This document shows positions 1,874-58,151 of a stretch of DNA of 64,000 nt, in pieces. The DNA comes from Limonium bicolor. Taxonomy: Eukaryota; Streptophyta; Magnoliopsida; Caryophyllales; Plumbaginaceae. Under the pieces are notes generated by a model. That model saw only the letters and a program-made list of their open reading frames with translations, did no database searches and was not told the origin of the DNA. Position numbers and translations under genes: made by a program. The stretch covers positions 479,175,594-479,239,593 of the forward strand of contig CM041777.1 of assembly GCA_023374045.1 (NCBI GenBank). The letters run 5' to 3'. Within the stretch, counting starts at the first letter, position 1. Each line of letters starts with the position of its first letter.

Positions 1874-2061
1874 CTAGTCAGTAAACAAAGAAGGGTACTT
1901 CGCCCTCATCTTATCCTCTAATTCCCACGTGGCCTCTTCGACATCCTGGTTAGACCAGAGAACCTTCACCAGTCGCACTGACTTGTGGCGAGTGTCCCTA
2001 GTCTTACTGTCCAATATTCTCTGAGGAGTCTCCACGGATCTCATATTCGGTTCTAAAGTCA
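1874..2061 (-). pseudogene. Chromodomain at the C-terminus of element A integrase (frameshifted)
   Basis: About 60 residues with chromodomain features: a PQRILDSK start, VKVLWSN, then EEATWELEDKM and KYPSLF before a TAG stop at 1874. Chromodomains at the integrase end define chromoviruses and are thought to guide integration to marked heterochromatin. It lies one base out of frame with the integrase, whose frame stops at 2059-2061, so a single small indel near 2060 separates them. Confidence 0.88.
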
Positions 2062-3240
2062 ACCTCTCAGTTCTAACACATGGGAGGGGTGGTGCATGTA
2101 TTTCTTTAGCTGTGAAACATGAAAAACATCATGCACTTTACCCAGCTCAGCAGGTAAATTCAACCTGTAAGCAACCGGGCCCACCCGCTCCGTAATCTCA
2201 TAAGGACCAACAAATTTCGGGCTTAATTTGCCCTTCTGCCCAAACCTGAATACACCCTTCATCGGTGAAACTCGCAGAAATACCTGGTCGCCCACTGCGA
2301 ACTCCAGGTCCCGTCGTCGAACATCAGCATACGACTTCTGCCTATCTTGAGCAGCTTTCATGTTCTCCCTGATTTGCTGAACTTCAGCCTTAACTTGTTC
2401 TAAGTACTCTGGTCCTATAATGACCGTCTCACTCGACTCATCCCAGCAGAGCGGTGTACGACATGGTCTACCGTACAACGCTTGAAAAGGTGCCATCTTG
2501 ATCGAAGCGTGATAGCTGTTGTTGTATGAAAACTCGATCAGATGCAATCTATCAATCCAACTGCCCTGGAAGTCTAAGGCACATGCTCTCAGCATATCCT
2601 CGAGTGTCTGAATAGTACGCTCAGTCTGACCATCTGTCTGAGGATGGAACGCGGTACTCAGCTTGAGTTCTGTACCCAACGCTTCTCTGGTAGCTCTCCA
2701 GTACCTCGAAAGGAATCTGATATCTCTATCTGACACTATGGTCTTTGGTATGCCGTGATGTCTCATGATTTCTTTCTCAAATAACTCAGCTAATTTGGTC
2801 ACCTTCCAAGTATCCCTCATCGGTATGAATCAGGCTACTTTGGTAAGGCGATCCACCACCACCCATATCATGTTGAGACCTCCCCTAGCAGGTGGAAGCC
2901 CAACTACGAAGTCCATGGAGATATCATGGAACTTCCACTCCGGAACTGGCATCGACTGTACCATTCCGCCCGGTCGTCGGTGCTCGAATTTCACCTTCTG
3001 GCATGTGAGACACCTCAAGACGAACTCGGTAACATCTGTCTTCATCCCCGACCACCAGAAGTATCTCTTCATGTCTTTATACATTTTAGAGGCTCCCGGA
3101 TGGATGGAAACTGAAGAACAGTGTGATTCTCTAAGTATACGGTCTTTCAGATCCGTGTTGCCTCGTGGTATGCATAACCGGCCCTTAAGTCTGATCAGAT
3201 CATCATCATGAAGTCTGAAGTCGTATTTCTGACTCTCAAA
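2059..3240 (-). pseudogene. Element A integrase (zinc-binding, catalytic core, GPY domain)
   Basis: DDE integrase that would insert the cDNA into host DNA. The N-terminal HHCC finger ends in CLTCQK. The core shows [14 protein letters not shown] and HPQTDGQTER, giving the D, D and E residues. The C-terminal part has the chromovirus GPY motif (KFVGPYEITE) and HDVFHVSQL. An in-frame TGA at 2830-2832 falls in the core, just after DRLTKVA, between the first and second catalytic Asp. The reading frame is otherwise continuous with RNase H and RT, so the parts belong to one polyprotein. Wording is typical of Tekay/Del. Confidence 0.93.
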
Positions 3241-3356
3241 GGTACCATCTGTCAGCTTCTGTCTGACCTCTCTCATGTACTCATCTGTCCTCTGAGCCTC
3301 TCGCACCTCATCAACCAAGCTGGAGAAAGAAACTAGCGAATGGAGTGAGTGTGCTC

Positions 3357-3705
3357 GACGGCTCAGGGCATCTGCTACAACATTGGCCTTCCCCTCTTTG
3401 TATTGGAGGTCAATGTCATAGTCTTTCAGAAACTCTAACCATCTCCTCTGTCGAAGATTTAACTCCTTCTGAGTGAATATGTATTTCAAACTCTTGTGAT
3501 CGGTGTAGATCGTGACACTAACCCCATATAAGTAGTGGCGCCATATCTTCAAAGCGAAGGCTACAGCTCCCAACTCTAAATCATATGTGGGGTAGTTCTC
3601 CTCATGTTTCTTCAACTGGCGTGAGGCATATGCCACCACCTTGCCATGTTGCATGAGCACGTAACCCAGCCCTCTGCCGGATGCATCACAATAAACCTCA
3701 AAGCC
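3357..3705 (-). pseudogene. Element A RNase H domain
   Basis: Degrades the RNA strand of the RNA:DNA hybrid during reverse transcription. Visible motifs in order are VYCDASG (first Asp), [17 protein letters not shown] (Glu), [12 protein letters not shown] (Asp), NLRQRRWLE and [10 protein letters not shown] (last Asp), so all acidic catalytic residues are present. An in-frame TAG at 3706-3708 separates it from RT. The same frame continues into integrase through a short tether, as normal for Ty3/gypsy pol. Confidence 0.93.
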
Positions 3706-3708
3706 CTA

Positions 3709-4700
3709 TGTACCGTCTGGAATGGTCAGGACCGGTGCAGTGGTCAGTGAGTCCTTCAAACGCTGAAATGATCTCTCACAGTCAACTGTCCACAAGAACG
3801 GTGCATCCTTCTTCATCAGACTGGTCATCGGTTTCGCGACCTTGCTGAAATCTCTAACAAACCTCCTGTAGTAACCTGCCAGACCGAGAAAGCTCCGGAT
3901 GTCGGTAACAGTCTTCGGCCTTGGCCAAGTACGTACGGCATCAATCTTTGCTGGATCCACTGCGATCCCAGCATCTGAGATGACATGACCTAGGAAAGAG
4001 ACCTGGTCAAGCCAAAACTCACACTTGGAGAACTTAGCATATAGCTGGTTCTCCCTTAATATTTCCAATACCCTCCTCAGATGTTCCTCATGCTCAACCT
4101 TAGACTTCGAATATATCAAAATGTCATCAATAAACACCACAACCGACTTGTCCAGCTGCTCCCGGAACAAGCGGTTCATCAGATCCATAAACTTCGCCGG
4201 TGCGTTCAACAATCCGAACGGCATCACTGTAAACTCATAGTGGTCGTATCATGTTCGGAATGCCGTCTTCTCAATGTCTCCCTCCTTAATGGCTATCTGA
4301 TGATACCCCGATCTGAGATCAATCTTGGAAAACACAGATGCTCCCTTCAACTGATCGAACAGATCGTCAATGCGGGGTAGTGGATACTTATTCTTCACTG
4401 TCACTGCATTCAGCTCTCTGTAGTCGATACAGAGGCGGAGACTACCATCTTTCTTCTTCACGAAGAGGACTGGCGCTCCCCATGGTGACACACTTGGTCT
4501 GATGAATCCCTTATCCAACAAATCTTTCAATTGTTCTTTTAATTCAGTCATTTCTGCCGGAGCCATATGGTATGGTGCCTTGGCTATCGGTCCGGTACCA
4601 GGTAGCAGCTCGATGGTGAACTCTACCTCCCGAGTGGGTGGCATGCCGGGCAGTTCCCGTGGGAATAAGTCGGGGAACTCCGACACTACCGGTAAGTCGG
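3709..4700 (-). pseudogene. Element A reverse transcriptase
   Basis: Copies element RNA into cDNA in the particle. Motifs include [25 protein letters not shown] with the first catalytic Asp, [16 protein letters not shown], the [10 protein letters not shown] active site with the Asp pair, and [16 protein letters not shown] with the thumb/connection following. A TGA at 4249-4251 interrupts the frame just after KTAFRT, where this family normally has an Arg. This fits CGA to TGA by deamination of a methylated CpG. The frame upstream and downstream is identical, so the stop is a point change. Confidence 0.95.
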
Positions 4701-4819
4701 GGTCAAACTCAGGGTCTCTCTCTATGTCCTGTACATAGCAGAGGTATACTTCTTCCTTTCTCCTCAATTTCTTATACATTGCCATGACGGTGATGATCTT
4801 AGTCGAAGGCTCTCTGGGC

Positions 4820-5252
4820 CTCTGGCGGTATGATATTGTTACCCCAGACGGATTCCTGAGCAGCAATCTATGCTCGGCGCAGAGGATACGTCCCTTGTGC
4901 CGCTCCAACCAGTTCATCCCGAAGATAGCATCAAATCCTAGCTTACTGAACTCAATGAAACTGACTGGGAAGTCTTCTCCCTTAATTCTGATGGTGGCTC
5001 CTCGGTAGTAACGAGTGCAACGAACCTTCTCCTTGGACGGGAGCGTAACCGTGAAGTCGGGTAGCTCATCAGCGTCTAGCCCCAACCTGCTCGCGAAGGA
5101 TGCCGAGACAAAGGTATGCGAGGCCCCTGAGTCGAAGAGAACTGATGCCTCAATCCCATTAATCGGAAAGGTGCCGGTGAGGATAGTACCGCTGGCGTCG
5201 GCCTGTGCCTCTGTAAGTATGCTTAGTGCACCTTCCGTACCGAGTCCATAAC
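4820..5252 (-). pseudogene. Element A aspartic protease, start of the pol exon
   Basis: Retroviral-type aspartic protease that would cut the polyprotein. The active site is [10 protein letters not shown], with its Asp codon at 5131-5133, followed by the FGMNWL strand. The frame is open upstream to 5252 and continuous with RT. No good Met lies upstream of the active site (the nearest, at 5085, is after it), so the domain must be reached by splicing or as part of Gag-Pol. The predicted acceptor TTAG at 5256-5253 begins the exon in the correct phase for a join from the Gag donor at 6268. Confidence 0.85.
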
Positions 5253-5407
5253 CTAATTGTGTTCACAAGCTTCATGAGTATTGATGGTATAACAAGAGTC
5301 GTAACAATTTATATGAACAACACTGTTATTTTATTCATGACCATCCTGTTTACAACATGTGCTTCAATCATACATCTCTTTCCTCATCTCATTCTAACAT
5401 TACATGG

Positions 5408-6138
5408 CTAATACTGTCTAAAGGTTAGGTTTAATCTTCCTGGTCTCATATGCATCGCATTGATTACTGCTGATGGTGCTGTATTCAGCTTGATTCTCTT
5501 AATCCCATGGTATAACATCCTTGATTCTCCTCCCAAAACTAATACATCACCTGACTTAAGTACTATCTTATCTACACGGTCCGCACGCTTCTGCTCGCCG
5601 TATAAAAATTCTGCATCATCCCCAATGGACCAAGACACTACGGGTATCCCTCTTTCGAGAGACTCCGTTGTCTCGTCCTTATCCTGGTGTAGTCCCAGTC
5701 TCCCATCTTTTTCGTAGAAGTTTACAATGCAAATGTCTGCCTGGATGTCTGGAATCGGTTCAGCTTTCCAACTGCTGAGCGATTTCCACGATTGTGTATA
5801 ACTGGATGGAACTCTTCGGGTATTCCCCGATGGGGAGATCCATCTGCACCATCATGGTTGGTAATTCTTGCATAGGATTCCAATCCGCCCAAGCTCTCAT
5901 CTTTAATTTCATCTTGCTCCCCCGGGTACTCCGGTGTGTAAAAACCTCCCGGTTCCCATTCCTAGTTGATTGCATCTTCTGATGATGGCTGGTTGTGCTT
6001 CGGGTGTCAGGTATCCCCTTAATAAAATCATACCTGGGCGGATAACCTGACATTGTTCGGTTGGAAAGTCTATGATTTCGATGTCGGTGTGCTCCGGGTT
6101 AGATGTAGATGGTATAGGGTAGCAGATGTTGAATCTTC
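5408..6138 (-). pseudogene. AlkB-like 2-oxoglutarate/Fe(II) dioxygenase domain carried by element A
   Basis: AlkB-family enzymes oxidatively remove alkyl groups from bases; eukaryotic members act on methylated DNA or RNA. In the C-terminal half the 2OG-contacting Asn and Tyr are in IVNFYE (5725-5714), the iron site HxD is in LGLHQDKD (His 5687-5689, Asp 5681-5683), the distal His is in MLYHGI (5507-5509), and the 2OG-binding Arg pair is in RPGRLNLTFRQY (5435-5437 and 5417-5419). The stop is TAG at 5408. The N-terminal part shows VIRPGMILLRGYL and KMKLKMRAW. The best resemblance is to plant cellular ALKBH1-like proteins. Frame is lost and regained by at least two or three small indels between about 5935 and 5790, so this copy is probably inactive. 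It lies between the Gag zinc knuckles and protease, an unusual place for an extra enzyme. Confidence 0.88.
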
Positions 6139-6268
6139 CTAAAGTGGTAGTAGGTTATATCTTACTTAAGTTCTAATCTCATCTTATTCTTACTTAACTC
6201 ATTTATTCACCAAACATGCATGATAATGCGGTAAGCAGTTTTTTATTACTAAATGGTTATAGCGGTAC
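6139..6268 (-). other. Predicted short intron joining Gag to AlkB
   Basis: 130-nt AT-rich segment with donor CAG|GTACCG and acceptor CCACTTTAG|GAAG. It contains stops in the Gag frame. Removing it joins codon base 6269 to 6138-6137 and continues straight into the AlkB frame, the same frame used by the intact catalytic half. Possible branch sequences (CTACTACC) lie shortly before the acceptor. Inferred from splice signals and phase. Confidence 0.62.
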
Positions 6269-6606
6269 CTGGCCTCGATGAGGGTTCAGGCTCATCGTCC
6301 CGGTCCACCATGTGTAATGTGGGCCCCGACTTCTGGGTCACCCTTGGGTTCTTGTCCGCCTGCTGCACCTTCTCTGACCGTCCGATCCAGCTCCCTGATC
6401 GGTCTTGCCCTTGCCCCTGGTATCGGGCCTATAGGCTCTACTAGCAGGGTTCCGGTAACACTCGTATGCCCGGTGTCCATACACTCCACAAAAGTTGCAC
6501 TCCACCTTATTCCCTTTACAGTCGAGCCCGGGGTGGTCCTTGTGACACCACCTACAGATGAAGCGTCGCTGGTAGCCACCACCGGCTCCCTTCTCAGTCT
6601 CAGATC
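6269..6606 (-). pseudogene. Element A gag exon 3: two zinc knuckles and acidic linker
   Basis: Nucleocapsid part of Gag, which binds element RNA. Two adjacent knuckles are visible: CRWCHKDHPGLDC, one residue shorter than the canonical spacing, and CNFCGVYGHRAYEC, a perfect CX2CX4HX4C. A Gly/Arg/Lys-rich tail follows, then an acidic linker (VDRDDEPEPSS) ending at the 6268 donor. One small frameshift separates the knuckle frame from the linker frame. The exon starts in phase from exon 2 after removal of intron 2. Confidence 0.83.
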
Positions 6607-6686
6607 CTGATGATTCATAATGTCAATTCTCATATCTCAAACGGTTACTAATTTGTTTCTTAACTTATTCAATATCAATTCCTTAC
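6607..6686 (-). other. Predicted gag intron 2
   Basis: 80-nt AT-rich segment, donor AAAGG|GTAAGG and acceptor AATCATCAG|GATCTG, with a TTGAC branch-like site about 20 nt before the acceptor. Unspliced, the Gag frame runs into a stop about 50 nt inside it. Spliced, base 6687 joins 6606-6605 and the frame runs directly into the zinc knuckles. Confidence 0.68.
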
Positions 6687-6939
6687 CCTTTGGCGCCCTA
6701 GAGCGCAGGGGTGTAGCTGCATAAGCATATGTCAACTTCAATGGCTCTTCAGGAGCCTTCTCTTTTTCCTCCTTCCCCTTTGGGTTCTGATTTTTCTGGG
6801 CCTGAGGCTGGTACTTCTGTTTCTTGTACCCTCCTTGCCCTTGACTTTCTGAGCTCTTACCAGCACTCTTCCTCTTTGCATTCTCCTCGTCCCTCAGCTG
6901 GACGGTTATCTCAACCTTAGCAGCGGCATGATAGCACTC
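6687..6939 (-). CDS. Element A gag exon 2: basic linker
   Basis: About 84 codons between the capsid-like part and the zinc knuckles. It begins ECYHAAAKVEI, a stretch that normally continues the Gag capsid helices, and then becomes rich in Lys, Gln, Pro and Glu (for example QPQAQKNQNPKGK). It is open throughout in the frame reached by splicing introns 1 and 2. Alone it would lack a credible start, and exons 1, 2 and 3 occupy three different frames. Confidence 0.72.
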
Positions 6940-7025
6940 CTGCTTTTCCATAGTATTAGTCACACTTATTTCTCATAATCTAAATCTTACTCATTACTTA
7001 CTCAAATCTCAATCATTCTCATTAC
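6940..7025 (-). other. Predicted gag intron 1
   Basis: 86-nt AT-rich segment, donor TTGCAG|GTAATG and acceptor GGAAAAGCAG|GAG, with a consensus branch site TGACTAAT about 16 nt before the acceptor. An acceptor three bases earlier would also keep frame. Read through, Gag stops at 7002. Spliced, codon phase 0 is kept and the Gag homology continues. Inferred from signals and frame. Confidence 0.68.
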
Positions 7026-7679
7026 CTGCAAGGTAGTGTAACTCGTCGGCCCCATGTCGTAGCGGAGTCGATGGCTAAGCCCGCCATAGAAGCAGTCCAC
7101 CAGGATCTGGTCAGAATATCCAAGACCTGGCAGAAGACGGAGCAAGGCAGTGAACTCTGAGTAATACTCGTCCACTGTCATCTTGTCCGTCTGCCTAAGC
7201 GCATCCAACTGCAAGCGCTTCTTCGTCTGGACATGGGCAGGGTAGTACTTTGCTCGTAGCAAGGCGGTGTACTGCTCCCAGCCGAACTCTGGATTGGCCA
7301 CATGCTCGGCCCTCACCAGCTTCCACCAATCGCCTGCCGCCCCCTTCAGATAGAAAGCAGCTAAGCGCACCTTGATCCCAGCAGGGACATCAAGGGTCTC
7401 GAAGGCGGTCTCCAGCTCGGAGATGTACGCCTCAAGCTTGGCGGGATCGGTCTCCCCCTTAAAGTGCGCGGGTCGAAGATCTGCAAGACTCTTCACCCAG
7501 TTTGGTTCCCTAGGTTGTGGCGGTGGAGGTGGTGCACCCGCACCAGGCTGGTAGCCCATATGCCCTAATGCGGCAGCTACGATCTCTGCGATCGTCTGCC
7601 CTCCAGGTATTCCTGAAGTATCCTCACCCTGGCCGCGACCTCGGCTTCCCCTAGGACGTCCTGCCATCTGAACAAGCAT
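7026..7679 (-). CDS. Element A gag exon 1: capsid-like domain
   Basis: Structural protein forming the retrotransposon particle. An Arg/Gly-rich N-terminus (GRPRGSRGRGQG) and a Pro-rich spacer are followed by a standard plant retrotransposon Gag region: FKGETDPAKLEAYI, AAFYLKGAAGDWW, EFGWEQYTALLRAKYYP, DKMTVDEYYSEF and LVDCFYGGL. Two in-frame Met codons, at 7679 and 7667, could start it. The second is followed by G, and the choice is unsettled. The coding sequence ends at the TTGCAG|GTAATG donor rather than at the read-through stop at 7002. It lies about 200 nt from the PBS. Confidence 0.88.
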
Positions 7680-7885: not shown

Positions 7886-7897
7886 GCTCTGATACCA
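7886..7897 (-). other. Element A primer-binding site
   Basis: Minus-strand TGGTATCAGAGC, complementary to the 3' end of plant initiator methionine tRNA. It lies five bases from the LTR end (GGTGTTACA). This is the standard minus-strand primer site of chromoviruses. Confidence 0.95.
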
Positions 7898-8240
7898 CTT
7901 TTTGTAACACCCCATCCAAAGCCTATCGTGGTTATCGCAAACTGAACACTTAATCGAATACGTCGCAGCAGAAATAAATAACACCTGGACCTTGCCACGG
8001 TCTGATCGTTAGAATATACCGGCCTTAACGTTTACAATACTTATCCAAAACACTTATCCAAATCAAAACATCACCATTCACAATACCACAACCAACCGAG
8101 TACAAGTATCTTAACATCATCTCAACCTTACATCAGTTTAAATATAAACAGTCAGGTGCACAGGCGCAACCCGAACTCAAAATAAACATCCCACCCTAAG
8201 ACTAACTGCTCCTACTCTCGTAGTGCGTCCTCATGGGTCT

Positions 8241-8280
8241 CTTACCTGCAAGTGTAAAAATAGCCCCCGGGGGGGTCAGC
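8241..8280 (-). promoter_or_regulatory. Conserved LTR module with abutting splice-like sites (A)
   Basis: Minus strand reads GCTGACCCCCC-GGGGG, a U-rich stretch, TTGCAG and then directly GTAAGAG. An acceptor-like sequence is fused to a donor-like one. Equivalent modules occur in B (10447-10487 and 20664-20701), E (33317-33366) and F (36141-36188). In C the hairpin and U-run remain but the GT after CAG is lost. Confidence 0.5.
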
Positions 8281-9397
8281 ACGAATGCTGGTACACCCTC
8301 TCATGGCCCCCAAGCTAACGGGGCTACGACGACTAATTGTCGATAGCATGGAAATTGATTACATACACAAGCATAATATGAAGTGCAATAACAATAACCA
8401 CAGATGAACATATATAGTTCACAAACAATGAACGACTCAAGCGTTCCCTTATCAAGTGGGTTAGTAACCCCCTCCTTAGTCCTCATTCCCTTAATCTCAG
8501 TTCCTTACCTTACCTTAATCTTAATCTTAATCTTAATCTCAGTATACAAACCTTTCCTGGAAGGGATTGGTTGTAGCTTAATTCGAACCTGGGATTTAGG
8601 TGATCCCACCGCACCATCTTAATGCCACCTACTCTGGACGGGAGTCCAGCGTAGCTGAGCCGGCAACCGGCCCTAGGCTACAAGTCCGAAGACAAGTCCT
8701 TAAGCGGAGGGCGGATCTGATTCAGATACCGTCCCCCTTTTTCCTTAGCATGCATGACCGGAGATCGGTCCCGGGTTTCCTCACTCAAGTTCCAGTTAGT
8801 AGACATCTTAATCACCATGTGCTAGCTAAGCCCTAACGGGCATTAACCAACGACCACCCAACTTAACCCTTATTCTTAACTCAGGAAGTACTAAACTTGG
8901 TTAGTAACCATCTCAAGTCTCGCGGGTTAGTGTAAATATAACACAATCACAGCGAGAACAAAATAACCGGTTGCATGCTTTATCTTGTTTTAGTCATAGC
9001 AATTAAACAGATAGCACACAAGCCGAGGGACACCTCGTTAGCAAGCAGGTCACAAGAAGGATTGTACCGTTCACCGTCGACGATCGTTTGGTTTATCTCC
9101 TTCCAAGTCCCAATTCACAAAGCCTAGAACATTGATTCAGTTTTAGGTTATTATCAATCCAACTCAATAGAATTACTTAACTTCCTAGATCAACTTTTAC
9201 CCATTGTTTTTCACTAAGCCTTATGGTTTTTAACTTGACTCCTAAGTGCATCATTTCCTCATTATTTATTACACTTACTCTCCCACTTAATGACCATCAC
9301 ACCCACCCAAACAAGTCCTTAATAATCTCATAACATCCATACTTAATTATCCCCATCATTTCCTAACCTTAAACAAGGTTTTTGGTCCGTACAGTGG

Positions 9398-9640
9398 CCT
9401 GTCCGAACTTGTGTCCGGACTTCCCAAGTTCGGACACAAGTCGAGACTCAAAGCTAAAAACACGCATGTCCGAACATGTGTCCGACTTCGGAAGTTCGGA
9501 CATGGGTCGAGGAAAACTCAAAGTAGAAACAGGTACGTCCGAACTTGTGTCCGGACTTCCCAAGGTCAGACACAAGTCGAGACTCTAAAAATTTCACGCA
9601 ACAGGGCCTGTCCGAACGTCCATGTCCGGACGGATGTTCG
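9398..9640. repeat. Hairpin array in element A LTR
   Basis: Four successive imperfect inverted repeats built from GTCCGAACTTGTGTC / GACACAAGTTCGGAC-like arms, each separated by a few tens of bases. The sequence differs from the arrays in B and C, but position and design are the same. Confidence 0.8.
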
Positions 9641-9998
9641 GACAAGGCAAAACACTCATTTTCTAAGCCTTCAAACACTTAGCCAATTTTCACCAAACTT
9701 CTCCTAAACCTTCATAATGTCTTCTAACTTCATTTGTCACATTTACACCCTCATACAACATCCCACAAAACTCATTTTCCATCTCCTTAAACACTTACTC
9801 ACTTCATACCAAAATTCCAACACTTATGATATTTTCTCCTTGGTTTTCTAAGTGGTGTTTCATACCTATGACAGCCACTATGCCAATAATGTTCCCTCAC
9901 TACTACAACATCATCTCCCAAGCATCTTTTCTTGCACTTTCCAAGGTTTTCCTTAAATTCTAAACCCTAGTTTCTTTTATCAACATTTACCTAAGTCC

Positions 9999-10003
9999 TA
10001 AAT
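9999..10003. repeat. Target-site duplication of element B (left)
   Basis: TAAAT, repeated at 24682-24686 on the other side of B. Five bases is the usual TSD length for Ty3/gypsy elements. Confidence 0.93.
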
Positions 10004-11753
10004 TGTAACACCCCTACTATTAATTCAGTCATTACCGTCCAATCTCCTCGTGCTTCCCGAGTCACGCAGCGGATACATACTTACATACGGGTGATACAAT
10101 GCCGTTAGTCACCCACGTGACTAACAAGGCTACTACTGCTACATACAGCATCGGTCTGATGGACCGGAATATCCGAGTACTACTTAATACAATACATACT
10201 CTCATTACATACTGGATACTACGATACTCCATTCGATACATTACTCCATTCAATACAATACTCCACAATTCCGTACAAGATAATACACTACGCATACCGA
10301 GTTTACTAGGTTCCAAATCAATACAATACTTCTCCCAAATTCATACATATTCACTAGGAGTCAATCTACTACCCATTCCTCGCAAACTAGATACTTCTAA
10401 TTACAAGGCGCGTCGCCGGTCTCTTACCTTGACCGTATTCGCTCCGGGTACCTGCACACTAAAAATGTTCCCCCGAGGGGGTTAGCTTACGCTGAATATG
10501 ATAACCGCATACCCCGCGTACTAGCGAGGGTACGCCGACCATTTGGTCGAATACATGCAATTCATTTTGCACTACATACATTCATACATACATACATACA
10601 TGCTTTCATTCATGATACTACAATACTACACAAGGATACATACGTACGCACAGTACACTACATGCTTGGAAGACAATACAAGTCAACCAATACTTACTTA
10701 CCATCTTTCAGGATACACATACACAATACATACTCATTACGTGCCCAATACACAATACGGAGATACAATTCTCCAATACATACAAAGGTCCAGTTAGCTT
10801 CATTACACACCCAGGTTAATCGGGTGTTCGATACTACTTTACTTCCGGTCAATGACTTACAATAGTCAAGACCAATACACATACAATACTTACTTCTTAC
10901 ATACTTTACTTCCTGTTAAGTCGGTTATGACCTCCGGGCAGGGATTACTACATCCCACCACCGGGCTTTAGGGTGGCCCACTAATCCAGGATGCTACCCA
11001 TTTAAGGGAATTGGTCCAAGGAAAAGATTATAGCCAGGATTCGGATCCAACCTCTTGTGTTTCCTTATCCTCACGCGTGGCCGAAACTATATCGGACTTC
11101 TACTCATTCCAGTTACTCATTACCCAAGTTAGGAGTTAGAATGTTAGGAATTAGTAGAAGTCAATACTTCATTTCCATTCATACATACAATACTCAAGTA
11201 CGCAATACTCACACATACTTCTCAATTCCATTCATTCATTTCATGAATTATACAAACTAATTGTTCAAGAAACACAACAAGAACAAATAGTTCAAACACA
11301 GTTAAGTGCAATATAAATCCGATTCGTGCATTTATCTTATTGGTGATCACATAAGCACACAAATCGGGGTAACCAGGTTAGGATACAGAGCATGAAGAAA
11401 TCATACCGTTTACCGTTGTATCCGCACTACCGGCTCCTTCGAGGATCAACTACTGGATTCCTATACATACATGAAGTAGTACGATCAATGATCTATTATT
11501 GATCCACTTACTCCTTCATTGATATTTTCAATGTATTCTTACTACTTCATTATTTTCTTACTTGGTTATAAAACCATTCTTTCCTTTACTACTTCATAAC
11601 TTACTTCCTTACACATTTACTTACTTCCTTACCATTATTACTTCATTAATGGTGTATTACTACTTTATATGCATACCGTGTATAGGCATATACCTATACA
11701 TACATATGCTTACTATAGTCATATTATAAAAAATTTTTTTTTGTAAGTGTTTG

Positions 11754-12096
11754 GGCCGTCCGACCCACCGTCCGACCCAACCCTGGGTCGGACCATTCCA
11801 GTAAGGTTCGTTCCCAGAAAATTACCCTGTCCGACCCAGCACTATTCCGTCCGACCCATACTCTCTGGGTCGGACCATTCCAGAAGGTTTTGGTCCTGTC
11901 GTCCAAGCTCCGTCCGACCCACGTCCGACTCACCGTCTGGGTCGGACGAAGTCAGAAACTTCGACATTGTAAAAATTTGCATGTCCGACCCATGTCCGAC
12001 TCACGGCTCTGGGTCGGACCATTCCAGAAAGTTTAGTTTTCGTTTCTTAAGCCCCGTCCGACCCACGTCCGACTCACCGTCTGGGTCGGACGAAGT
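11754..12096. repeat. Hairpin array 1 in element B LTR (CCGACCCA type)
   Basis: Repeated GTCCGACCCA ... TGGGTCGGAC inverted pairs, five or so, with conserved spacer words such as CCATTCCAG and GAAGTCAGAA. The same array is at about 21973-22316 in the other LTR. Confidence 0.85.
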
Positions 12097-12419
12097 CAGA
12101 ACCTTGCTACAGATTTTATTTTTCTTTCCCAACTTCACCCATTGTTTCCCCCAATCTTCTTACATGTAATCTCACATGTTTAACCACTACCTAGGCCCTT
12201 CAAATTGCCTTAGTTCATCCACCTTACATACTTACTAATCCTTACTTGTACAATTTCATTCCCATTCTTTACTTACTTCTCATTCTCATTCTAGCTTGTT
12301 TATACTCCTAATGACTCTTACTTATGATTACTTAAGTCTTAAGCAACTTATACAACCATCCCCAAACAAAGCCTTAACTTACAGCCCACTTAGAATTCCT
12401 CTCGGGTGAAATTTGGTGT

Positions 12420-12676
12420 TGGTCCGGGACCTTGTACACAAGGTAGTCCCGGACCATGATAGATCAGAACTCTCGACTTGTTTTTTTTATGGTCCGGGAC
12501 CTTGTACATGGGGTAAGTCCCGGACCAAGCGTTTTGGGGAAACTCTCGGGTCGATTTCTGCTAGTGGTCCGGGACCTTATACCAGGGGTAAGTCCCGGAC
12601 CCATATTGATTTGCAACTCACGGGTGGTTTTAGATGATCGGTCCGGGACTTAACACAAGGCCTAAGTCCCGGACCA
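12420..12676. repeat. Hairpin array 2 in element B LTR (GGTCCGGGAC type)
   Basis: Four successive stem-loops GGTCCGGGAC ... GTCCCGGACC with 13-16-base loops and ACTCTCGGG-like spacers. The counterpart in the right LTR is at about 22639-22896. A related four-hairpin array occurs in element C. Confidence 0.9.
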
Positions 12677-14458
12677 GTAGTGGTCTGTTACGAATTTCGT
12701 TTTTCTTCTTGCTCTGTTTCGTTCTCATCTTCTTCTAATCACTTCCTAATGGTTTCTAATCTTAATGTTACATGTTTGACTACTTATCCAAGCATCCAAC
12801 TCACCTAGATCCCTCACCAAAATCAATTCCCTCAACCTACTGCTATCTCACCATTTCCACTGTTTTCATTCTTTTCTTCCTTTCTGTTGTAGAGTTCGAG
12901 CTGCTGCTCCTTCTGTTTCTTTCTTTTCTTTCTTTCACAAATGTTACCAGCTCCTAAGCAAGACAGTTTCCTCTCTAAATTTTGACATGGTGACCCTTAA
13001 ACTTAAGGTTTTCACCACGTTAGTTTGTTCACTCATCAAAGATTACAACCTGTCCAACTATACATATATGCATCAGACGGTTTATATATATACATGTGCT
13101 TCAGTTCACCGTTCACACAGCAGCAGCTTACGTATTTTTGTTTGACAGATTCCAACTCAACAATTTACTAATGTTAGTTAACTGCTCATTTCATTGCTAC
13201 GGTCATAATGGTTTTACATTTACTAAGACATTACACTTGCTCCCACACACTCACGCATTATACACAGAACTGAACAGAGGTAATTTACCTCGTTCTTGTT
13301 TTCCTTTTCTTTTCTCTGCTTCTCGGTTTGCTTGCTCTTCTTTGCTTCTTTGTTTGTTTTCTTGTTTTACTCAGACCAAACTTGGCTCCAGATAGTTGGG
13401 CAGTAGTAATGCCAAACCGGCTAGAGAAATGGAAATGGAAGTTCACGTGGGTTTGGTTTTTGCATCAGAGAATGAAACAAATGTAAACAAAGAAAGGTTT
13501 AGCTCTTTGCTTTACCTTAGAACTTATATGGGAAGAAATGAAGCTTCAACCGGTGCTGTCCAAGCTTCAGCCGTTAACACCCACAAAAATGAAATTGCTT
13601 GTTTTGCGTTTTTGGAAGGTGGAGATTACTCTCCTTAATGAGGAGATTCCAACGGTGTTATTTTTGTGAGATTTGGTGGTGGTTCGGTCTCTCAAAAATG
13701 GAGGAGAAGGTGCTGTGTTTCTTGGTGTTTCAAATCGCCATGGCGGCTGCTTGGAGGAGAAGAGAATTCAGAGAGTATGGGCTAGGTCTGTACGTGAGAG
13801 GAGAAATGAGAGGGCAGGAGAGAGATTATGTGAGGTAGTAAATGTAGTTACTTTTTGATTTCTATTTGTTTTGTCCTTTTGCTCATAAGAAGGGAATTAA
13901 AGGGGTGTGAATGGGGCTCAAAATCGGACACACTCACACAGCCCATGTGGGTTGTAAAATTTTATTTACAATATTGGACACACTAGTTTGAGTTATTTGT
14001 GCTTTTACCCCACAGTTACCCGTTTTTTTCGGAATTTCCTCGTCTAAATAATTTTATTGGCTCTAGACATTCATTAATATTTATTAATGGCTATTCAATT
14101 ATTTATACTTATTACGGGTCTATTTAACCCGTTTAAAGTCGCGTTTTCCCGGTTACCTCGAAAACGCGCTTTAATGTTCATTAGTGTTTTTAATCCATTT
14201 TGAGGATCCGTTTTCTTCGGGATTTGTTCCCTCATATCTATTTAGACTTAATTAAGCCTTTAGAGTCCTTACAATACGCTAACCGAGGTCTCATACCTCC
14301 TATGGTTACTTAACGCTTATTTAGCGTTTTTCGCTTTTTAAGCGTTTATTTATTTCTTTTGGATTTATTTTTCCTTACCAACATTACTCTAGAATTATTA
14401 GGCTCTTAAATACGGATTAGAATTATCTTAATCACTATATTTAAGTTTGGGTATTTCA

Positions 14459-14475
14459 ATCTACCCCCCTTAAGA
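14459..14475 (-). other. Element B polypurine tract
   Basis: Minus-strand TTCTTAAGGGGGGTAGAT abutting the LTR start TGAAATACCC. The core is identical to that of A and C. Confidence 0.88.
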
Positions 14476-15830
14476 ACTTTGTCCTCAAAGTTGCTCAAGG
14501 TTATAGGATTATAATACTTGCTCATTCTTACTTGTCTATGCCAAAGGTCGTACATTCTTCCTCCTTACAATTTCTGAATTCATTACTTCAGGTTTCCACA
14601 TTCCTTACGATACAAGTATACCATACTTACTTCCATCCGCATCACGTCCCACCATCTAGTTCCACATTACAAGATTTATACATACATACAATGCAAGGCT
14701 ATTCCCAAAGCAATGCAATACACATTCCAATCCCGTAGGCGCTCAGGTCATCTAGACACGGGACTCCTCTATGTCCCGCCGCCCTTGGAATAATACCACA
14801 TACTACCTTACTATCTTCCTCGGTACTCACTTCTAACACATCCTCATTCTCCATACTAAAGGAAATTCTTTCACTACTCCCAATTAAAACTTTTCTAAAC
14901 ACACAACTTCAAATTCCAATTTATATTCGTTACTTCTATCCTATGTGATTCTTGTGACCACTTAAGGGGAGCTTCAAGAATCGTTCAACCCTGATGTGAT
15001 CAGCATCGGTGTTGCACTATCTTTCCACCCCAATTTGTGTTCGGTTTCCCTCGATCTGATCAGGATCAAGTTCAACTTCCCACATCAGTTTCAAACAAAC
15101 AGATAGTTGATTATTTCAATTTTCTATCCTTTTACTCTGCCTAGTCGTGATTACAATTTCACACATCTCCAAAGGATGGAATTCAGTCCATCAATCATCC
15201 TCACTCTACTTCCCAATACTTGCTTCAATATTCAATACCTACATACTCATTTCATCGTTTGTTACTACTTCCATTCACTACTCTCCTTCATCTCAAATAT
15301 TCTAGCTAAGGACTACAGTACTTAGGAAATTTGGTTGTCCTCGATTTACTTCCAATAACATACTTACGAATACACTACTCATGGTTACAATCCTCTACTA
15401 CTCATAGTCAATCCGTACTACTTCTTTAAGAATACAATACTTGTGGAGCTCCGTCCACTACTCATTCTCAATTGTCTCAAGACAATCACCTAGGGAACTC
15501 AATTTCCTCTAGGTTATACATCGGTTTTATACCGACTCATGCATCGTAATACCATGTCTAACTTCAGATAGACACACACTACAAGAATTATCATTTCCCC
15601 AAGAGTTACTCTACTCTTCTTTACTAATACTTTTCCACTGGGGTTACAAGATGGTATATTCATCCTATGGTATTCGCATCTCTCGTGCCTAATTACCACA
15701 GTTACAATATGAATGAATACGTATGTTTATTTAACATAAGTGCCAATCATTAAATCAATTCTCATTTGTGCTATGCACATTATAGTTTCATGTGTTTTAT
15801 TTATAAAACTTGTATTAAGCGGTTTTCGCT

Positions 15831-15865
15831 CTACCCCCCTTATAAGGGATTACGCCCACGTAATC
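15831..15865 (-). other. Second PPT-like tract and hairpin in element B
   Basis: Minus strand GATTACG-loop-CGTAATC (15848-15865), then CCCTTATAAGGGGGGTAGAGC. Stem bases differ from A in both arms in a pair-preserving way. Confidence 0.7.
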
Positions 15866-18800
15866 TACCATATGTTACTATTAAACATTGGTTACTCGAT
15901 TTGGGCAATTTGAAGCGTTTAGCTTCATTATGATATACTATACAATGTGCTCTGGTCAAGGGTCTTAACCATACCAATGGTTTAGTCTTTGCACCGAGGA
16001 TTCGTACATGAGTTTATTTAACTCCTAATTAATTCAATTCTAGCATATTAGGCTTCAAGGCATTAATAGCCATTCTTCCGTACTTACTATGTGTATTACA
16101 TTTCTTAGTTAGGGCCCACTAGCTTCTGCTGCGCGACCCTGATAACTTGGGTTACTCACCCTTCATGTTATCCTTAATGTGCTATACATCACCTTTCTAT
16201 CCCTCTATTGTGGGAATAAGGTTTACTAACAATGTGGTATTCTTTTACCGCTGTTTGAACTCAATGAGTTTTAGATTATAACCAGCTTTCTGGTAATCTA
16301 TTATACATATTATTCGTACTCCCATGATTATTCACTAAGTCCCTCCGACTTGTTGTCGGGCGAGGTTAAGTCACTACCTAGTTGCAGTGCTTCCTCTGTT
16401 GTCACTAGCTTCTGAATAATACCAGTTCTTCTGGTTCAGTACAAGTGTTCTTTGCTTGTATGACCTTGCATTCTCAATGCGTCGGTCCGAGTGACTTTCT
16501 TCAGTCTTCTTTCACCTTTTATTCCAATGGAATTCACATCTGTGATTGTTAGTGTGTTTCGCACTCTTCGTGCTTCTTTGGCCGTAGGCCGCACGGTTGT
16601 TGCTAAGCTTGCTTAATTGGCTTGCCCTGTCTGTTGGTGAAAAGAAGGATTTACTACGGTTTACATTCTCCATATCCCTAGCCCTCCCATTAGATCATTA
16701 GCTGCACAAGTGCAATACAAAAACACTCAGTCATACAGAGTGCAGAGGCGTAAACGCTTGACAGTAAGTCACTTATGTGATAGGAAAGAATATTTCTGTG
16801 TGTCATCTCATACTTATACTCCGTGTTATTGCTTAACTACTCCCTCATAGCGGTCGCTTGTTGCGCACCGTATTCTTACTCATTATACAACATCGTTTTT
16901 ACTGTTTCTGTTACTGTGATAGTTCGTCTCTACTCATTGCCATTGTCGTTGGCACCATTTCCTTATGGTGTAAATACACTAGGAGATTCCCAGTGTTCAT
17001 GTGTATGACGGTTGTCGTAGAATACTGCACGTTATCATCTTCCCATTGTGGAGATGTTCTGTTTCCAATTAGGTTTCATGTGTAGGTTAGCTTACCTCAC
17101 ATTCTATCATCATTTGTGATACAATTTACCTAGTGTCTTGATTGACAATTGATGAAGTGGTTTATCGGGTTACTAGCTCTCTTGAGCGTTGGTCAATCAT
17201 GGTTTTCAATGTGTATTCACATTGGTTGTTTTGACAATTACTGTCTTTCCAGTGCTGAGCACTAATGATAGGCTCTAGCTGTGTAGTTTTTGCTTGTATG
17301 TATACTACCAGGACATCCCATGAAACTTCAAGGGTTTTCTGGTCCCGTTCTCCAATTGGAGGGTATTCTATCGCTGACAAGTGAAGGTTCTTGTTGAGGG
17401 GTTTATCTCCACTCATAGGTTTAATGACAAGGTTTGCCATGTTGGTGTTTACACAACGGTCCACTATATATATGGATGCACATGGAGTATGCTTACTCCT
17501 TTAAGTCGTAATGGTTTGGAATTCTCATTTCCTTACTCCATCACCCCTTGGCAATATCTATTGCGTGGTTTATTGTTATAATAGATGGAGCCTTTTCTAA
17601 GGGTTCATATCATTACCGCATTGGTGGTCTTTGGTTAAAGGGGTACCTTCCCTTGGGTTTCCCGTAGTGTTCAGGTGTGGACTAGGCCAATGTTGGCATT
17701 ATCATGATTCTTATGCCCCTGTGCTACCACTGCTACAGAAGGCATGGCAGTAATTAAGAACTCCGTCAACTGTATACTAGGCTGATGCTCTAGTGACAGT
17801 GACATTGAGTTGGCCATTACTCCAAGCCACTCAGGATGTTGGGTTTGAATTTGTGGTCCAGTTGTTGATTTCTTGTCGTATGAGGCAATATCTCTTGTAG
17901 GTCTTGTTTACAATTTGTGCCGGTTTTGCAACCGTTTAAGTTTATATAACGTATTTGGTTTATAACTTCTGGGCCGTATTGCTGCAAGCTATGCTCTTTG
18001 CAAGCTGCTTATACATGTTTCCACTCCACGTATACCGTCATAGGTTGGAGGTATTACTAGGCTCCATGGTAAGTCGTGACATCACGCTTCCGTTCATAGG
18101 AGACCCCTTAGGCATCCTGGTGTTAATCAGTGCCTCTTAGTAATTTAGGGCATTTCCTGTTAAGTGAAATCCCTTCGGTGTCTTAACCGAGTGTGCGTCC
18201 CAGCTCCGTGCTTTTATTATGCTGCTTCATTGAACTGTTGTTAATCTAGACACTCTTCAAGGACTGCTCCTGGGTGTTGTTGGTTATGCCGTTACATCCG
18301 GCTCATGTTTATGATATGTTGTGCCTACTATACCGCCTTGTGGTATTGTAATTGAGCTATTCCCTTTTTGGGGTTATAATGTCTCCCGTTCTTGGGTAGA
18401 CTGTTTATACATTCCTCTAGTGTTTAAGACTAGGTTAAATATCCTCTTCCATGATGGATTATGTTCTTTGGTAGTTTTATAGTTGTTCTTGGGAATTCTG
18501 TCCCGTCTGTTGGTCGTTGTGGTGTCCACGTTAGGCTCTTGCCTTACCGTGTTTAGGCTGGGTATACTTTCCAGCTGCCATGTATTTACTGATGTCCTGA
18601 GACATATCCAATGTCTACACTTACTAGTTTGTGCTCTTTGCACTTCCTAGTTCTTATTCCTTATCTTCATATGGGTTCTCTGAGTTCCTTTATACTTGAT
18701 CGGCTGAGTTGTCCAGCTGCTCTGGTTTGAACTTACTTATGGTCCGTAGAACGGAGTTGACTACTTCCCGTGTGTCGTACGCTACATGTATACATACGTG

Positions 18801-20200
18801 GGGTACCGTGTTGATACGTTACCACTTACCCGACTACTGGTCAGGCCCACAAGCTCCTTCGGAGTGCGGTCGTCCCACATCCCGTAATTGGGTACACTCG
18901 TAGCGTTCGTCACACGCCTAGGTGAAGTATTCTGTTGCCAACTCCTCTTGTATCATTCTATGATACTCACCGTAATTCTGTTGGTTTGGTTTTAAGATCA
19001 TGGTACGGTGTCAAAAGAAGTTCCTCATGGTATAGCCATGTTCGAAATCTTGACCAAGTCTAGCTTCATGCTGACTGGTATGAGGTTAAAGTAATGGTCA
19101 GGCCGTTGGGCCTTTCCAAGGTTCCATACTCCTAGTTGTTAGGGTGTGTGATCCTGTAGTTGCTTCTAGTAGCCACGGTACATTACTATGTACATGTGGT
19201 GCGTTAGAGTTCCTTTACATATTCCTGCCCTTACTGCACTTGCCGTGGCAAGTGCGCGGTACTGGTGGTTTTTGGGTAATTCTATACCGATCCCATTCAT
19301 AATTGGTAGTCTTGCTTACTCTTCCTTTGATCTTGTTGATCACTTACTTGGGTTAATCACTCTTCTGAGTAACTCCCCAGTGAGTCTGACATAGCTGTCA
19401 TGGATCAGGGTACTTCTCCAATCCTTGGAGCTTCCCCTTGACTTGGTTGTGTTGTTCCTTGTTGCTTATTCCACACTTTGGCTGTGGCTACTGAGCCTGA
19501 TTTGGGTTAGGCACTACAGTTGTAGTTATGTCAGGTTATACCTTGTGAATATTCCTGTAGCTGTCTGAGCTATGTTGGCCAGGTTTGTACCCTTTTTGGC
19601 GTTGTAGTTTTGGAGTCAGTCACTCCAGACTATGTCCTTAGCTAGCTAGCTCACCATTGGTGGTGTTGCTTGGCTATTACTGTTGTCCCGTAGACCTGCG
19701 TCTCGGGTTTCATTACTGCTCCTGTTTCCATTTCGTTGCACAGTTAGTGCTTCTTTTCCTGTTACTGGTTGTTTAGCTAGGTTCTGCGACTGTTAAGCAT
19801 GTCGCCCCATGCTGTTGCAAGTTATAGCCTCCTTGTGGTTGGAGTGTTTATACTACCGCTATTGAGTGCGGCTATTGTTGTTCAACCGGGATCCACTTCC
19901 GGGTCTTCCATTACTTGGAATCTACCATACGTCGGTTCTGGTTTATTGTGTGATTGTTTCACAACTGCCAGATCGGGTTTTCCCCGAGTATGAGAAGGCT
20001 TTTCTTCTCCCTGGCGTCCTTCCCCAAGTTATACAGTGGGGTTTGCGGCGGGCGGGACTGGTATTGTAGGCATCCGGTACTCACTGGTAGTTCCTAACTA
20101 GCATATCTTTAATGCTAACACTCAGCCCTTAGCCCTAAGCTCCTAATTCCTAACTCGGTATTCCTAAACTCGGTATTTCCAGTCATCAGAGCGATACTTC

Positions 20201-20212
20201 GCTCTGATACCA
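20201..20212 (-). other. Element B primer-binding site
   Basis: Minus-strand TGGTATCAGAGC five bases from the 5' LTR, identical to element A. Confidence 0.95.
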
Positions 20213-20217
20213 CTTTT

Positions 20218-23200
20218 TGTAACACCCCTACTATTAATTCAGTCATTACCGTCCAATCTCCTCGTGCTTCCCGAGTCACGCAGCGGATACATACTTACAT
20301 ACATCGGGTGATACAATGCCGTTAGTCACCCACGTGACTAACAAGGCTACTACTGCTACATACAGCATCGGTCTGATGGACCGGAATATCCGAGTACTAC
20401 TTAATACAATACATACTCTCATTACATACTGGATACTACGATACTCCATTCGATACATTACTCCATTCAATACAATACTCCACAATTCCGTACAAGATAA
20501 TACACTACGCATACCGAGTTTACTAGGTTCCAAATCAATACAATACTTCTCCCAAATTCATACATATTCACTAGGAGTCAATCTACTACCCATTCCTCGC
20601 AAACTAGATACTTCTAATTACAAGGCGCGTCGCCGGTCTCTTACCTTGACCGTATTCGCTCCGGGTACCTGCACACTAAAAATGTTCCCCCGAGGGGGTC
20701 AGCTTACGCTGAATATGATAACCGCATACCCCGCGTACTAGCGAGGGTACGCCGACCATTTGGTCGAATACATGCAATTCATTTTGCACTACATACATTC
20801 ATACATACATACATACATGCTTTCATTCATGATACTACAATACTACACAAGGATACATACGTACGCACAGTACACTACATGCTTGGAAGACAATACAAGT
20901 CAACCAATACTTACTTACCATCTTTCAGGATACACATACACAATACATACTCATTACGTGCCCAATACACAATACGGAGATACAATTCTCCAATACATAC
21001 AAAGGTCCAGTTAGCTTCATTACACACCCGGGTTAATCGGGTGTTCGATACTACTTTACTTCCGGTCAATGACTTACAATAGTCAAGACCAATACACATA
21101 CAATACTTACTTCTTACATACTTTACTTCCTGTTAAGTCGGTATGACCTCCGGGCAGGGATTACTACATCCCACCACCGGGCTTTAGGGTGGCCCACTAA
21201 TCCAGGATGCTACCCATTCAAGGGAATTGGTCCAAGGAAAAGATTATAGCCAGGATTCGAATCCAACCTCTTGTGTTTCCTTATCCTCACGCGTGGCCGA
21301 AACTATATCGGACTTCTACTCATTCCAGTTACTCATTACCCAAGTTAGGAGTTAGAATGTTAGGAATTAGTAGAAGTCAATACTTCATTTCCATTCATAC
21401 ATACAATACTCAAGTACGCAATACTCACACATACTTCTCAATTCCATTCATTCATTTCATGAATTATACAAACTAATTGTTCAAGAAACACAACAAGAAC
21501 AAATAGTTCAAACACAGTTAAGTGCAATATAAATCCGATTCGTGCATTTATCTTATTGGTGATCACATAAGCACACAAATCGGGGTAACCAGGTTAGGAT
21601 ACAGAGCATGAAGAAATCATACTGTTCACCGTTGTATCCGCACTACCGGCTCCTTCGAGGATCAACTACTGGATTCCTATACATACATGAAGTAGTACGA
21701 TCAATGATCTATTATTGATCCACTTACTCCTTCATTGATATTTTCAATGTATTCTTACTACTTCATTATTTTCTTACTTGGTTATAAAACCATTCTTTCC
21801 TTTACTACTTCATAACTTACTTCCTTACACATTTACTTACTTCCTTACCATTATTACTTCATTAATGGTGTATTACTACTTTTATATGCATACCGGTGTA
21901 TAGGCATATACCTATACATACATATGCTTACTATAGTCATATTATAAAAACATTTTTTTTTGTAAGTGTTTGGGCCGTCCGACCCACCGTCCGACCCAAC
22001 CCTGGGTCGGACCATTCCAGTAAGGTTCGTTCCCAGAAAATTACCCTGTCCGACCCAGCACTATTCCGTCCGACCCATACTCTCTGGGTCAGACCATTCC
22101 AGAAGGTTTTGGTCCTGTCGTCCAAGCTCCGTCCGACCCATGTCCGACTCACCGTCTGGGTCGGACGAAGTCAGAAACTTCGACATTGTAAAAATTTGCA
22201 TGTCCGACCCATGTCCGACTCACGGCTCTGGGTCGGACCATTCCAGAAAGTTTAGTTTTCGTTTCTTAAGCCCCGTCCGACCCACGTCCGACTCACCGTC
22301 TGGGTCGGACGAAGTCAGAACCTTGCTACAGATTTTATTTTTCTTTCCCAACTTCACCCATTGTTTCCCCCAATCTTCTTACATGTAATCTCACATGTTT
22401 AACCACTACCTAGGCCCTTCAAATTGCCTTAGTTCATCCACCTTACATACTTACTAATCCTTACTTGTACAATTTCATTCCCATTCTTTACTTACTTCTC
22501 ATTCTCATTCTAGCTTGTTTATACTCCTAATGACTCTTACTTATGATTACTTAAGTCTTAAGCAACTTATACAACCATCCCCAAACAAAGCCTTAACTTA
22601 CAGCCCACTTAAAATTCCTCTCGGGTGAAATTTGGTGTTGGTCCGGGACCTTGTACACAAGGTAGTCCCGGACCATGATAGATCAGAACTCTCGACTTGT
22701 TTTTTATTATGGTCCGGGACCTTGTACATGGGGTAAGTCCCGGACCAAGCGTTTTGGGGAAACTCTCGGGTCGATTTCTGCTAGTGGTCCGGGACCTTAT
22801 ACCAGGGGTAAGTCCCGGACCCATATTGATTTGCAACTCACGGGTGGTTTTAGATGATCGGTCCGGGACTTAACACAAGGCCTAAGTCCCGGACCAGTAG
22901 TGGTCTGTTACGAATTTCGTTTTTCTTCTTGCTCTGTTTCGTTCTCTTCTTCTTCTAATCACTTCCTAATGGTTTCTAATCTTAATGTTACATGTTTGAC
23001 TACTTATCCAAGCATCCAACTCACCTAGATCCCTCACCAAAATCAATTCCCTCAACCTACTGCTATCTCACCATTTCCACTGTTTTCATTCTTTTCTTCC
23101 TTTCTGTTGCAGAGTTCGAGCTGCTGCTGCTTCTGTTTCTTTCTTTTCTTTCTTTCACAAATGTTACCAGCTCCTAAGCAAGACAGTTTCCTCTCTAAAT

Positions 23201-24681: not shown

Positions 24682-24686
24682 TAAAT

Positions 24687-41912: not shown

Positions 41913-41930
41913 ATCTACCCCCCTTAAGAA
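41913..41930 (-). other. Element C polypurine tract
   Basis: Minus strand TTCTTAAGGGGGGTAGAT abutting TGAAATACCCC. Confidence 0.87.
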
Positions 41931-43143: not shown

Positions 43144-43177
43144 TACCCCCCTTAAAAGGGATTACGCCCACGTAATC
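43144..43177 (-). other. Second PPT-like tract and hairpin in element C
   Basis: GATTACG-loop-CGTAATC followed (minus strand) by CCCTTTTAAGGGGGGTAGAGC; same arrangement as A, B and E. Confidence 0.7.
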
Positions 43178-47628: not shown

Positions 47629-47640
47629 GTTCTGATACCA
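47629..47640 (-). other. Element C primer-binding site (one mismatch)
   Basis: Minus-strand TGGTATCAGAAC, one base different from the initiator-Met PBS of A and B, five bases from the LTR tip. Confidence 0.88.
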
Positions 47641-47645
47641 CTTTT

Positions 47646-53456: not shown

Positions 53457-53559
53457 AAAATTTTAAACTTAGAAAAGAGGGCTTAACTTGAACTTATAAA
53501 TTCTAAGGCTTACTTTTTATGATATTATTCTTTTTATTATCTTGTGCATACGAGAGATG

Positions 53560-58126: not shown

Positions 58127-58151
58127 TTGGAAACCAACATGGAGCATTTTT

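Follow-up and report, generated by a model that had tools for sequence, protein, structure and literature searches.

The stretch of DNA analysed here (the window) comprises 64,000 nt of Limonium bicolor (GCA_023374045.1, CM041777.1, positions 479,175,594-479,239,593, forward strand) and carries on its minus strand a long terminal repeat (LTR) retrotransposon in the order 5′ LTR, primer-binding site, gag, AlkB, pol, 3′ LTR. The AlkB part is a predicted exon for an ALKBH1-like 2OG-Fe(II) oxygenase that runs from a predicted 3′ splice site to a stop codon (5408–6138, minus strand) and is frameshifted in this copy. The splice-like site, TTTAG followed by GAAGATTC, stands directly before 6138 and the stop codon ends at 5408; these limits agree to the base with those claimed in an earlier annotation made from the letters of the window (the sequence-only reading). 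A Pfam profile search of the region placed PF13532 (2OG-FeII_Oxy_2) on 5851–5411 of the minus strand with an E-value (E) of 2.3e-36 and a score of 126 bits (cut-off 31), which rules out a chance match and bears out the AlkB domain that the same annotation had proposed. Its signature motifs all lie where they had first been placed, NFY at 5722–5714, HQD at 5689–5681, YHG at 5512–5504 and RLNLTFR at 5437–5417 (minus strand). Compared with one sister copy, the window AlkB has 3 bases inserted and 12 deleted (summed over at most three BLAST pieces), and its N-terminal and C-terminal parts are in different frames.

The remainder of the element, all on the minus strand, surrounds this exon as follows. 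Upstream, gag is divided into exon 1, which encodes the capsid from the likely start ATG (7026–7667; PF03732, E 2.8e-17), exon 2, a linker (6687–6939), and exon 3, which holds the zinc knuckle and has a damaged frame in the window copy (6269–6606). Between them lie predicted intron 1 (6940–7025; 86 nt, 29% GC), which contains an ACTAAT branch-like sequence, and predicted intron 2 (6607–6686; 80 nt, 28% GC), while predicted intron 3, GTACC...TTTAG, leads from gag exon 3 to AlkB (6139–6268; 130 nt, 31% GC). The AlkB stop codon is followed, up to pol, by a spacer (5253–5407) that has AATAAA from 5335 and ends in a second predicted 3′ splice site, ACAATTAG. The pol region (1876–5252, low end approximate) encodes protease, reverse transcriptase (RT), RNase H, integrase and a chromodomain-like end, and in the window it is recognized by PF08284, PF00078, PF17917, PF17921 and PF24626 and interrupted by several stops and shifts. 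The primer-binding site TGGTATCAGAGC (7886–7897) is presumably of the initiator-tRNA-Met type. A nested insertion splits the 5′ LTR into an inner part (7903–10002, border approximate) and an outer part past the insertion (24682–26629), and the first part of the 3′ LTR (1–1558) continues off the left edge of the window. By these coordinates the LTR is ~4.05 kb, the interior ~6.3 kb and the whole element ~14.4 kb. The two LTRs are 98.4% identical over the 1566 available columns, and the insertion is therefore fairly young.

We searched the whole genome (2.92 Gb, 2686 contigs) for the AlkB piece and obtained 150 matches, a lower bound, since no more than these were scored out of 41106 first-look candidates. 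From this list we picked ten full copies that resemble the AlkB piece and keep its frame open over 250–251 residues. In all 10, gag with its zinc knuckle region is followed by AlkB and then by protease, with matching flanking repeats; RT, RNase H and integrase lie downstream in nine, L025 being without RT and RNase H, and L013 and L027 have a large insertion in pol. In each of the 10, AlkB is a single open frame of 251 residues from stop to stop, as expected of copies chosen for an open frame, and HxD, H and RxNxTxR are present. Because of that choice, a second sample was taken independently of AlkB by means of a gag mark, the exon 1–exon 2 joint described below, from which 16 of at least 200 places were drawn. 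AlkB is in its expected place in 15 of these 16 copies, L060 being without it in the 921 bases read. AlkB thus runs through the copies sampled from this abundant, chromovirus-like family, and a chance insertion into one copy, the possibility that the sequence-only reading had itself raised, is ruled out by the genome matches and by both samples. That reading had also called the element a chromovirus. The gene order agrees with this label, the Ty3/gypsy sequence gag, protease, RT, RNase H, integrase between LTRs being found in 9 of the 10 full copies; the chromodomain (PF00385) of sister copy L015, at 24.5 bits (E 2.5e-5), falls just under the Pfam cut-off of 25.1. The element may belong to the Tekay/Del clade.

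The open frame of copy L011 matched PF13532 over profile positions 1–194 of 194 (E 2.2e-45), and an AlphaFold model of it, built with 44 aligned sequences, had a mean predicted local distance difference test score (pLDDT) of 93.7 and a predicted template modelling score (pTM) of 0.90. Foldseek ranked rice ALKBH1 (5xoi/5xeg) first, with template modelling (TM) scores of 0.85/0.83 normalized by query and 0.92/0.93 by target at 49/50% identity, followed by E. coli AlkB and then by mammalian ALKBH1 entries; the structure as predicted has the AlkB fold. A PDB sequence search gave the same first match, rice ALKBH1 (5xeg; E 8.7e-72), while the best bacterial AlkB stood at 1.9e-24, the best of the entries named ALKBH1 (6ie2 among them) at 4e-12, and ALKBH5 was absent among its 21 matches. 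Judged by sequence comparison, the nearest AlkB homologue of the element protein is ALKBH1, and the ALKBH1-like resemblance first noted by eye is upheld by ~50% identity to plant ALKBH1 and by a model that is closest to the rice protein. It shares with plant ALKBH1 (rice 5xeg/5xoi; ALKBH1D-like) the fold, the catalytic residues and an upstream F(D/N)IC motif; what precedes that motif, however, is Gag, if the exon is spliced, and not the cellular N-terminal extension.

The element protein also differs from plant ALKBH1 in its phylogenetic position. In a tree of 55 proteins, four element sequences and four database proteins (P0001–P0004) formed one clade (100/100) on a stem of 1.41 changes per site, and under midpoint rooting this clade lay outside the 47 cellular rows and was not nested among them. 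The separate, long-stemmed position suggests that AlkB was not recently taken from a typical ALKBH1, or that it has evolved fast. Among the best 120 matches listed in each of the protein searches, P0001–P0004 are 61–73% identical to the element AlkB and mostly rank above cellular ALKBH1 proteins, the fragment P0003 lying lower in one search; all four have HxD and H, and three have RxNxTxR, P0003 ending before that motif. P0121 of Artemisia annua, which also ranks high in two of these searches and is outside the tree, has the domain twice at 42–45% identity. No relative turned up in viral contigs.

A comparison of substitutions across element copies, as envisaged in the sequence-only reading, returned low values of pN/pS (the ratio of non-synonymous to synonymous differences per site) in every set, 0.16–0.25 against a neutral expectation of 0.63–0.94 that was obtained by simulating random mutation of the same gene and depends on transition bias. 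Pooled pN/pS of AlkB was 0.159 in the 10 full copies, a figure biased low because they were chosen for AlkB similarity and an open frame; 0.227 in the 15 copies of the gag-mark sample, an unselected value that stands without a matched pol value; 0.250 in six loci with an exon 3–AlkB joint; 0.234 in L002–L008; and 0.221 over all 39 rows, with pairs not independent. These figures leave out L001, which is the window copy again, and rows of less than 85% coverage. In the 10 full copies the ratio was 0.199 for gag and 0.150 for protease–RT, and in nine it was 0.157 for RNase H–integrase. AlkB is under purifying selection, all sample sets being far below neutrality, and it is conserved about as much as the element's own replication enzymes and whole in some copies. 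These data bear on the passenger explanation, by which AlkB was captured from the host, has been copied along with the element ever since and is useless to it. Plant elements often carry captured gene pieces, and 13 of the 16 unselected loci are without a whole frame shown (three end early, one is without AlkB): L048–L050 stop short of the AlkB domain end and the remaining gag-mark copies with AlkB are broken, although some of the small frameshifts may be assembly errors. Yet a useless passenger would not be expected to hold pN/pS so far below neutrality in every set, nor to keep its catalytic residues in 10 of 10 copies, and the relatives at 61–73% identity likewise retain HxD and H in four of four cases and RxNxTxR in three. 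The passenger explanation is already disfavoured, and we regard it as very improbable.

We now turn to the manner in which the exon is joined to its neighbours. The spacers of gag begin with GT, end with AG and contain stops, and in the window copy the predicted introns have 28–31% GC compared with 46–59% in the exons. The sequence-only reading had placed AlkB between the Gag zinc knuckles and the protease. A position within one continuous gag–pol frame is ruled out by the spacer stops in the intron-bearing copies translated; AlkB lies instead as a predicted exon between intron-like spacers. In intact copies the last base of gag exon 3 is the first of a codon, which the AlkB and pol exons both continue in frame. 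As exon 3 fits both, the four predicted joints were written out and searched for in the genome. The exon 1–exon 2 joint occurs at no fewer than 200 places (at least 100 on each strand), the exon 2–exon 3 joint at 132 (66 per strand, at most two mismatches), the exon 3–pol joint at 12 (seven exact, two with one mismatch, three with two) and the exon 3–AlkB joint at six (one exact, five with one to three mismatches), so that intron 3 is exactly absent at six genome places; reversed-pattern controls gave no genome match for any joint searched.

The reading frame is open across the joint in five of the six exon 3–AlkB loci and in four of the six exon 3–pol loci that were translated, out of 12. One natural copy without AlkB (L040) has a single 812-aa frame that spans three junctions and takes in Gag with the zinc knuckle, the protease and the first stretch of RT, its zf-CCHC_3 match being weak (E 0.0093) and below the cut-off. 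At the AlkB joint, L043 has a frame of 262 residues that begins roughly 23 codons before the end of gag exon 3 and stays open up to the AlkB stop, with six internal AlkB residues missing, and in L015 intron 1 is exactly missing while AlkB is kept. An LTR end and primer-binding site were found within 1.5 kb at 7 of the 12 exon 3–pol loci and were not seen in the other five; the seven copies that show both thus arose by the element's own route. Separately, L041, which carries the exon 3–AlkB joint, has upstream of exon 3 a repetitive frame of 144 aa unlike gag, as if rearranged.

Whether the copies without AlkB derive from splicing or from an old AlkB-less line was examined through the combinations of the three segments and through trees of pol. 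Each pair among intron 1, intron 2 and AlkB shows all four combinations of presence and absence (20/4/3/7, 20/5/4/7 and 21/5/3/7), a pattern that single gains cannot explain without loss or recombination, although the frequencies mean little since many loci were fetched because of a junction. On the trees of pol, the first of which leaves out L001 (the window copy again), the AlkB-less label needs three changes, two of them forced by well-supported branches. Two AlkB-less copies sit among AlkB-bearing ones in a supported group of 12 (95/90): L030, in which all introns and AlkB are gone, and L031, in which AlkB is gone and introns 1 and 2 are kept. If unknown states are taken as absence, intron 2 requires nine changes on the pol tree, at least three of them forced, a scatter like that of randomly permuted labels (a count this low arose in 414 of 500 permutations).

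A different history has been considered for these copies, in which the AlkB-less family is ancestral, the AlkB cassette entered later, for example by template switching from another AlkB-bearing element, and the exon 3–pol copies are not splice fossils. Retroelements do recombine, and on a cleaner pol tree with a midpoint root, which omits L013, L025 and L027 (insertions or deletion; kept in the first tree), 10 of the 12 AlkB-less copies are basal and may therefore represent an older AlkB-less line and not splice products. A late cassette is less easily reconciled with the nesting of L030 and L031 among AlkB-bearing copies at 95/90, with borders that are GT...AG and keep the frame, with introns 1 and 2 being likewise exactly absent at many places, or with the repeated changes of the intron 2 label. 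We consider a late entry of the cassette quite unlikely.

We favour, as the likely interpretation, an ALKBH1-type exon between gag and pol that is spliced onto Gag and whose product would act within the particle as a demethylase on RNA or cDNA of the element. Under this interpretation the unspliced RNA would serve as the element genome; a splice that joins AlkB to exon 3, possibly followed by premature polyadenylation at AATAAA, would yield a Gag–AlkB protein; and a splice from exon 3 to pol, skipping AlkB, would yield Gag–Pol. AlkB would ride on a short-Gag mRNA of the kind known from other plant elements, and Gag would bring the enzyme into the particle, a loading step that we infer from the predicted Gag–AlkB product beside Gag–Pol. 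There it would strip N-methyl groups, N6-methyladenosine (m6A), N1-methyladenosine (m1A) or N6-methyldeoxyadenosine (6mA), that would mark RNA or stall reverse transcription. Removal of methyl marks from element RNA or cDNA, the function proposed in the sequence-only reading, would fit what is known of the AlkB family. In Arabidopsis, according to the accessible text of PMC12786077, ONSEN RNA is retained in stress granules through m6A until ALKBH9B, an eraser of the host, releases it; rice ALKBH1 takes 6mA off single-stranded DNA and R-loops, as reported in the accessible text of PMC10469495. From these two findings element RNA and nascent cDNA are both possible substrates, neither being preferred; an action on m1A58 of the primer tRNA was also weighed.

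Several observations weigh against this interpretation, in addition to the selection bias, non-independence and missing pol match of the pN/pS values. An AlkB frame is seen whole and open in just 3 of the 16 unselected copies (L056, L058 and L062). Splicing is read from genome copies alone, and packaging would rest on fusion to Gag. ALKBH1 proteins act on several substrates. The basal position of most AlkB-less copies leaves only L030 and L031 to argue for loss of AlkB, and template switching could also mix intron and AlkB states. Finally, in 9 of the 10 full copies the first Met of the AlkB frame stands where the Pfam domain begins, and AlkB may start without Gag.

This last point leads to the strongest competing explanation, by which the element has AlkB as a gene apart, expressed from its own promoter, by reinitiation or from the full-length RNA, with an enzyme unfused to Gag and free in the cell to act on RNA of the element or of the host, as has been suggested for orchid elements. 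The AlkB frame does have its own stop with AATAAA after it, nine of the 10 frames have a Met where the Pfam domain begins, relative P0001 is predicted to start at that point, the orchid AlkB is a separate open reading frame (ORF), ORF2, in the accessible account, and there are just six exon 3–AlkB places compared with 12 for exon 3–pol. Against this, the frames have no ATG before the domain in nine of 10 cases and yet ~30 upstream residues stay open, exon 3 is in frame with AlkB at five of the six junction loci, and the splice-like sites are conserved. A free enzyme is thus an unlikely alternative to the Gag-fused one, if less so than a late cassette.

AlkB domains have a precedent in genetic parasites of plants, since some plant RNA viruses carry AlkB within their replicase protein. 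The sequence-only reading knew of no described chromovirus family with AlkB. An AlkB-bearing LTR retrotransposon does have a precedent: the Phalaenopsis orchid Ty3/gypsy element Gypsy_Pa_2799 has an ALKBH5-like domain that demethylated m6A RNA in vitro, and a screen of 121 angiosperm genomes recorded such an element domain in Phalaenopsis and, in the accessible text, in no other plant (PMC9289625, Alvarado-Marchena 2022). The two elements share Ty3/gypsy affiliation, a very high copy number and a complete AlkB-family domain with cofactor residues. As the accessible part of that paper describes it, however, Gypsy_Pa_2799 is Tat/Ogre-related and 25 kb long, with 6.4-kb LTRs and the ALKBH5-like protein in a separate ORF2 of 565 aa (PMC9289625), whereas the Limonium element is of the chromodomain type, ~14.4 kb with ~4.05-kb LTRs, and has an ALKBH1-like exon between gag and pol; it matches none of the features ALKBH5-like, ORF2 and 25-kb Tat/Ogre and is set apart by description. 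No AlkB or ALKBH1 LTR retrotransposon besides the orchid one was found among the papers listed in searches of the open-licence PubMed Central (PMC) literature. AlkB in a retrotransposon is therefore not new, and the Limonium case appears to be a second capture that differs in AlkB subfamily, retrotransposon type, size, position and predicted mode of expression.

The proposed expression mode has its own relatives. According to accessible accounts, BARE1 makes a short Gag mRNA by splicing, the sunflower elements Tyran and Varan make a spliced short Gag mRNA with early termination, and EVD has a spliced short Gag mRNA as summarised in PMC12786077. Here too splicing would part a Gag mRNA from Gag–Pol; in those elements, as far as these accounts go, the splice merely ends or shortens Gag, whereas in the Limonium element it would add an enzyme. 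What the genomic DNA of the Limonium element shows of this is splice-like sites and exactly intron-less copies. A stronger form of the proposal, in which a retrotransposon arms its own coat, an alternative exon making Gag–AlkB so that each virus-like particle carries a methylation eraser, and in which this is a second capture, is possible though somewhat short of an even chance.

A lone orchid family could be an accident; an apparently independent second capture makes base methylation likely to be a general pressure on plant retrotransposons. If the stronger form is true, hosts would repeatedly raise RNA or cDNA methylation as a barrier, and retrotransposons would have overcome it more than once in the same way. 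The exon layout suggests a simple route to load an enzyme onto Gag while keeping Gag–Pol. The exon 3–AlkB and exon 3–pol joints are concrete junctions for long RNA reads, the junction-joined genome copies being a first RNA-free test.

Other repeats occupy much of the window. What splits the AlkB element's 5′ LTR is itself an LTR element (10003–24681, ~14.7 kb) with LTRs of ~4.46 kb that are 99.3% identical; its longest frame in a general frame list is 167 aa, so it may be non-autonomous. Direct repeats at 37709–50900 lie ~9940–9980 bases apart, are 93–100% identical and probably represent the LTR pair of a third element, and one stretch there is 73% identical to 20218–20517. Further direct repeats at 51088–63223, ~7790 bases apart and 92–100% identical, contain tandem arrays near 54.6 and 62.4 kb, with units of 71 and 79 bases. 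A tandem array of a 134-base unit (57641–57982; 2.5 copies, 96% matches) reads open in three frames of the minus strand.
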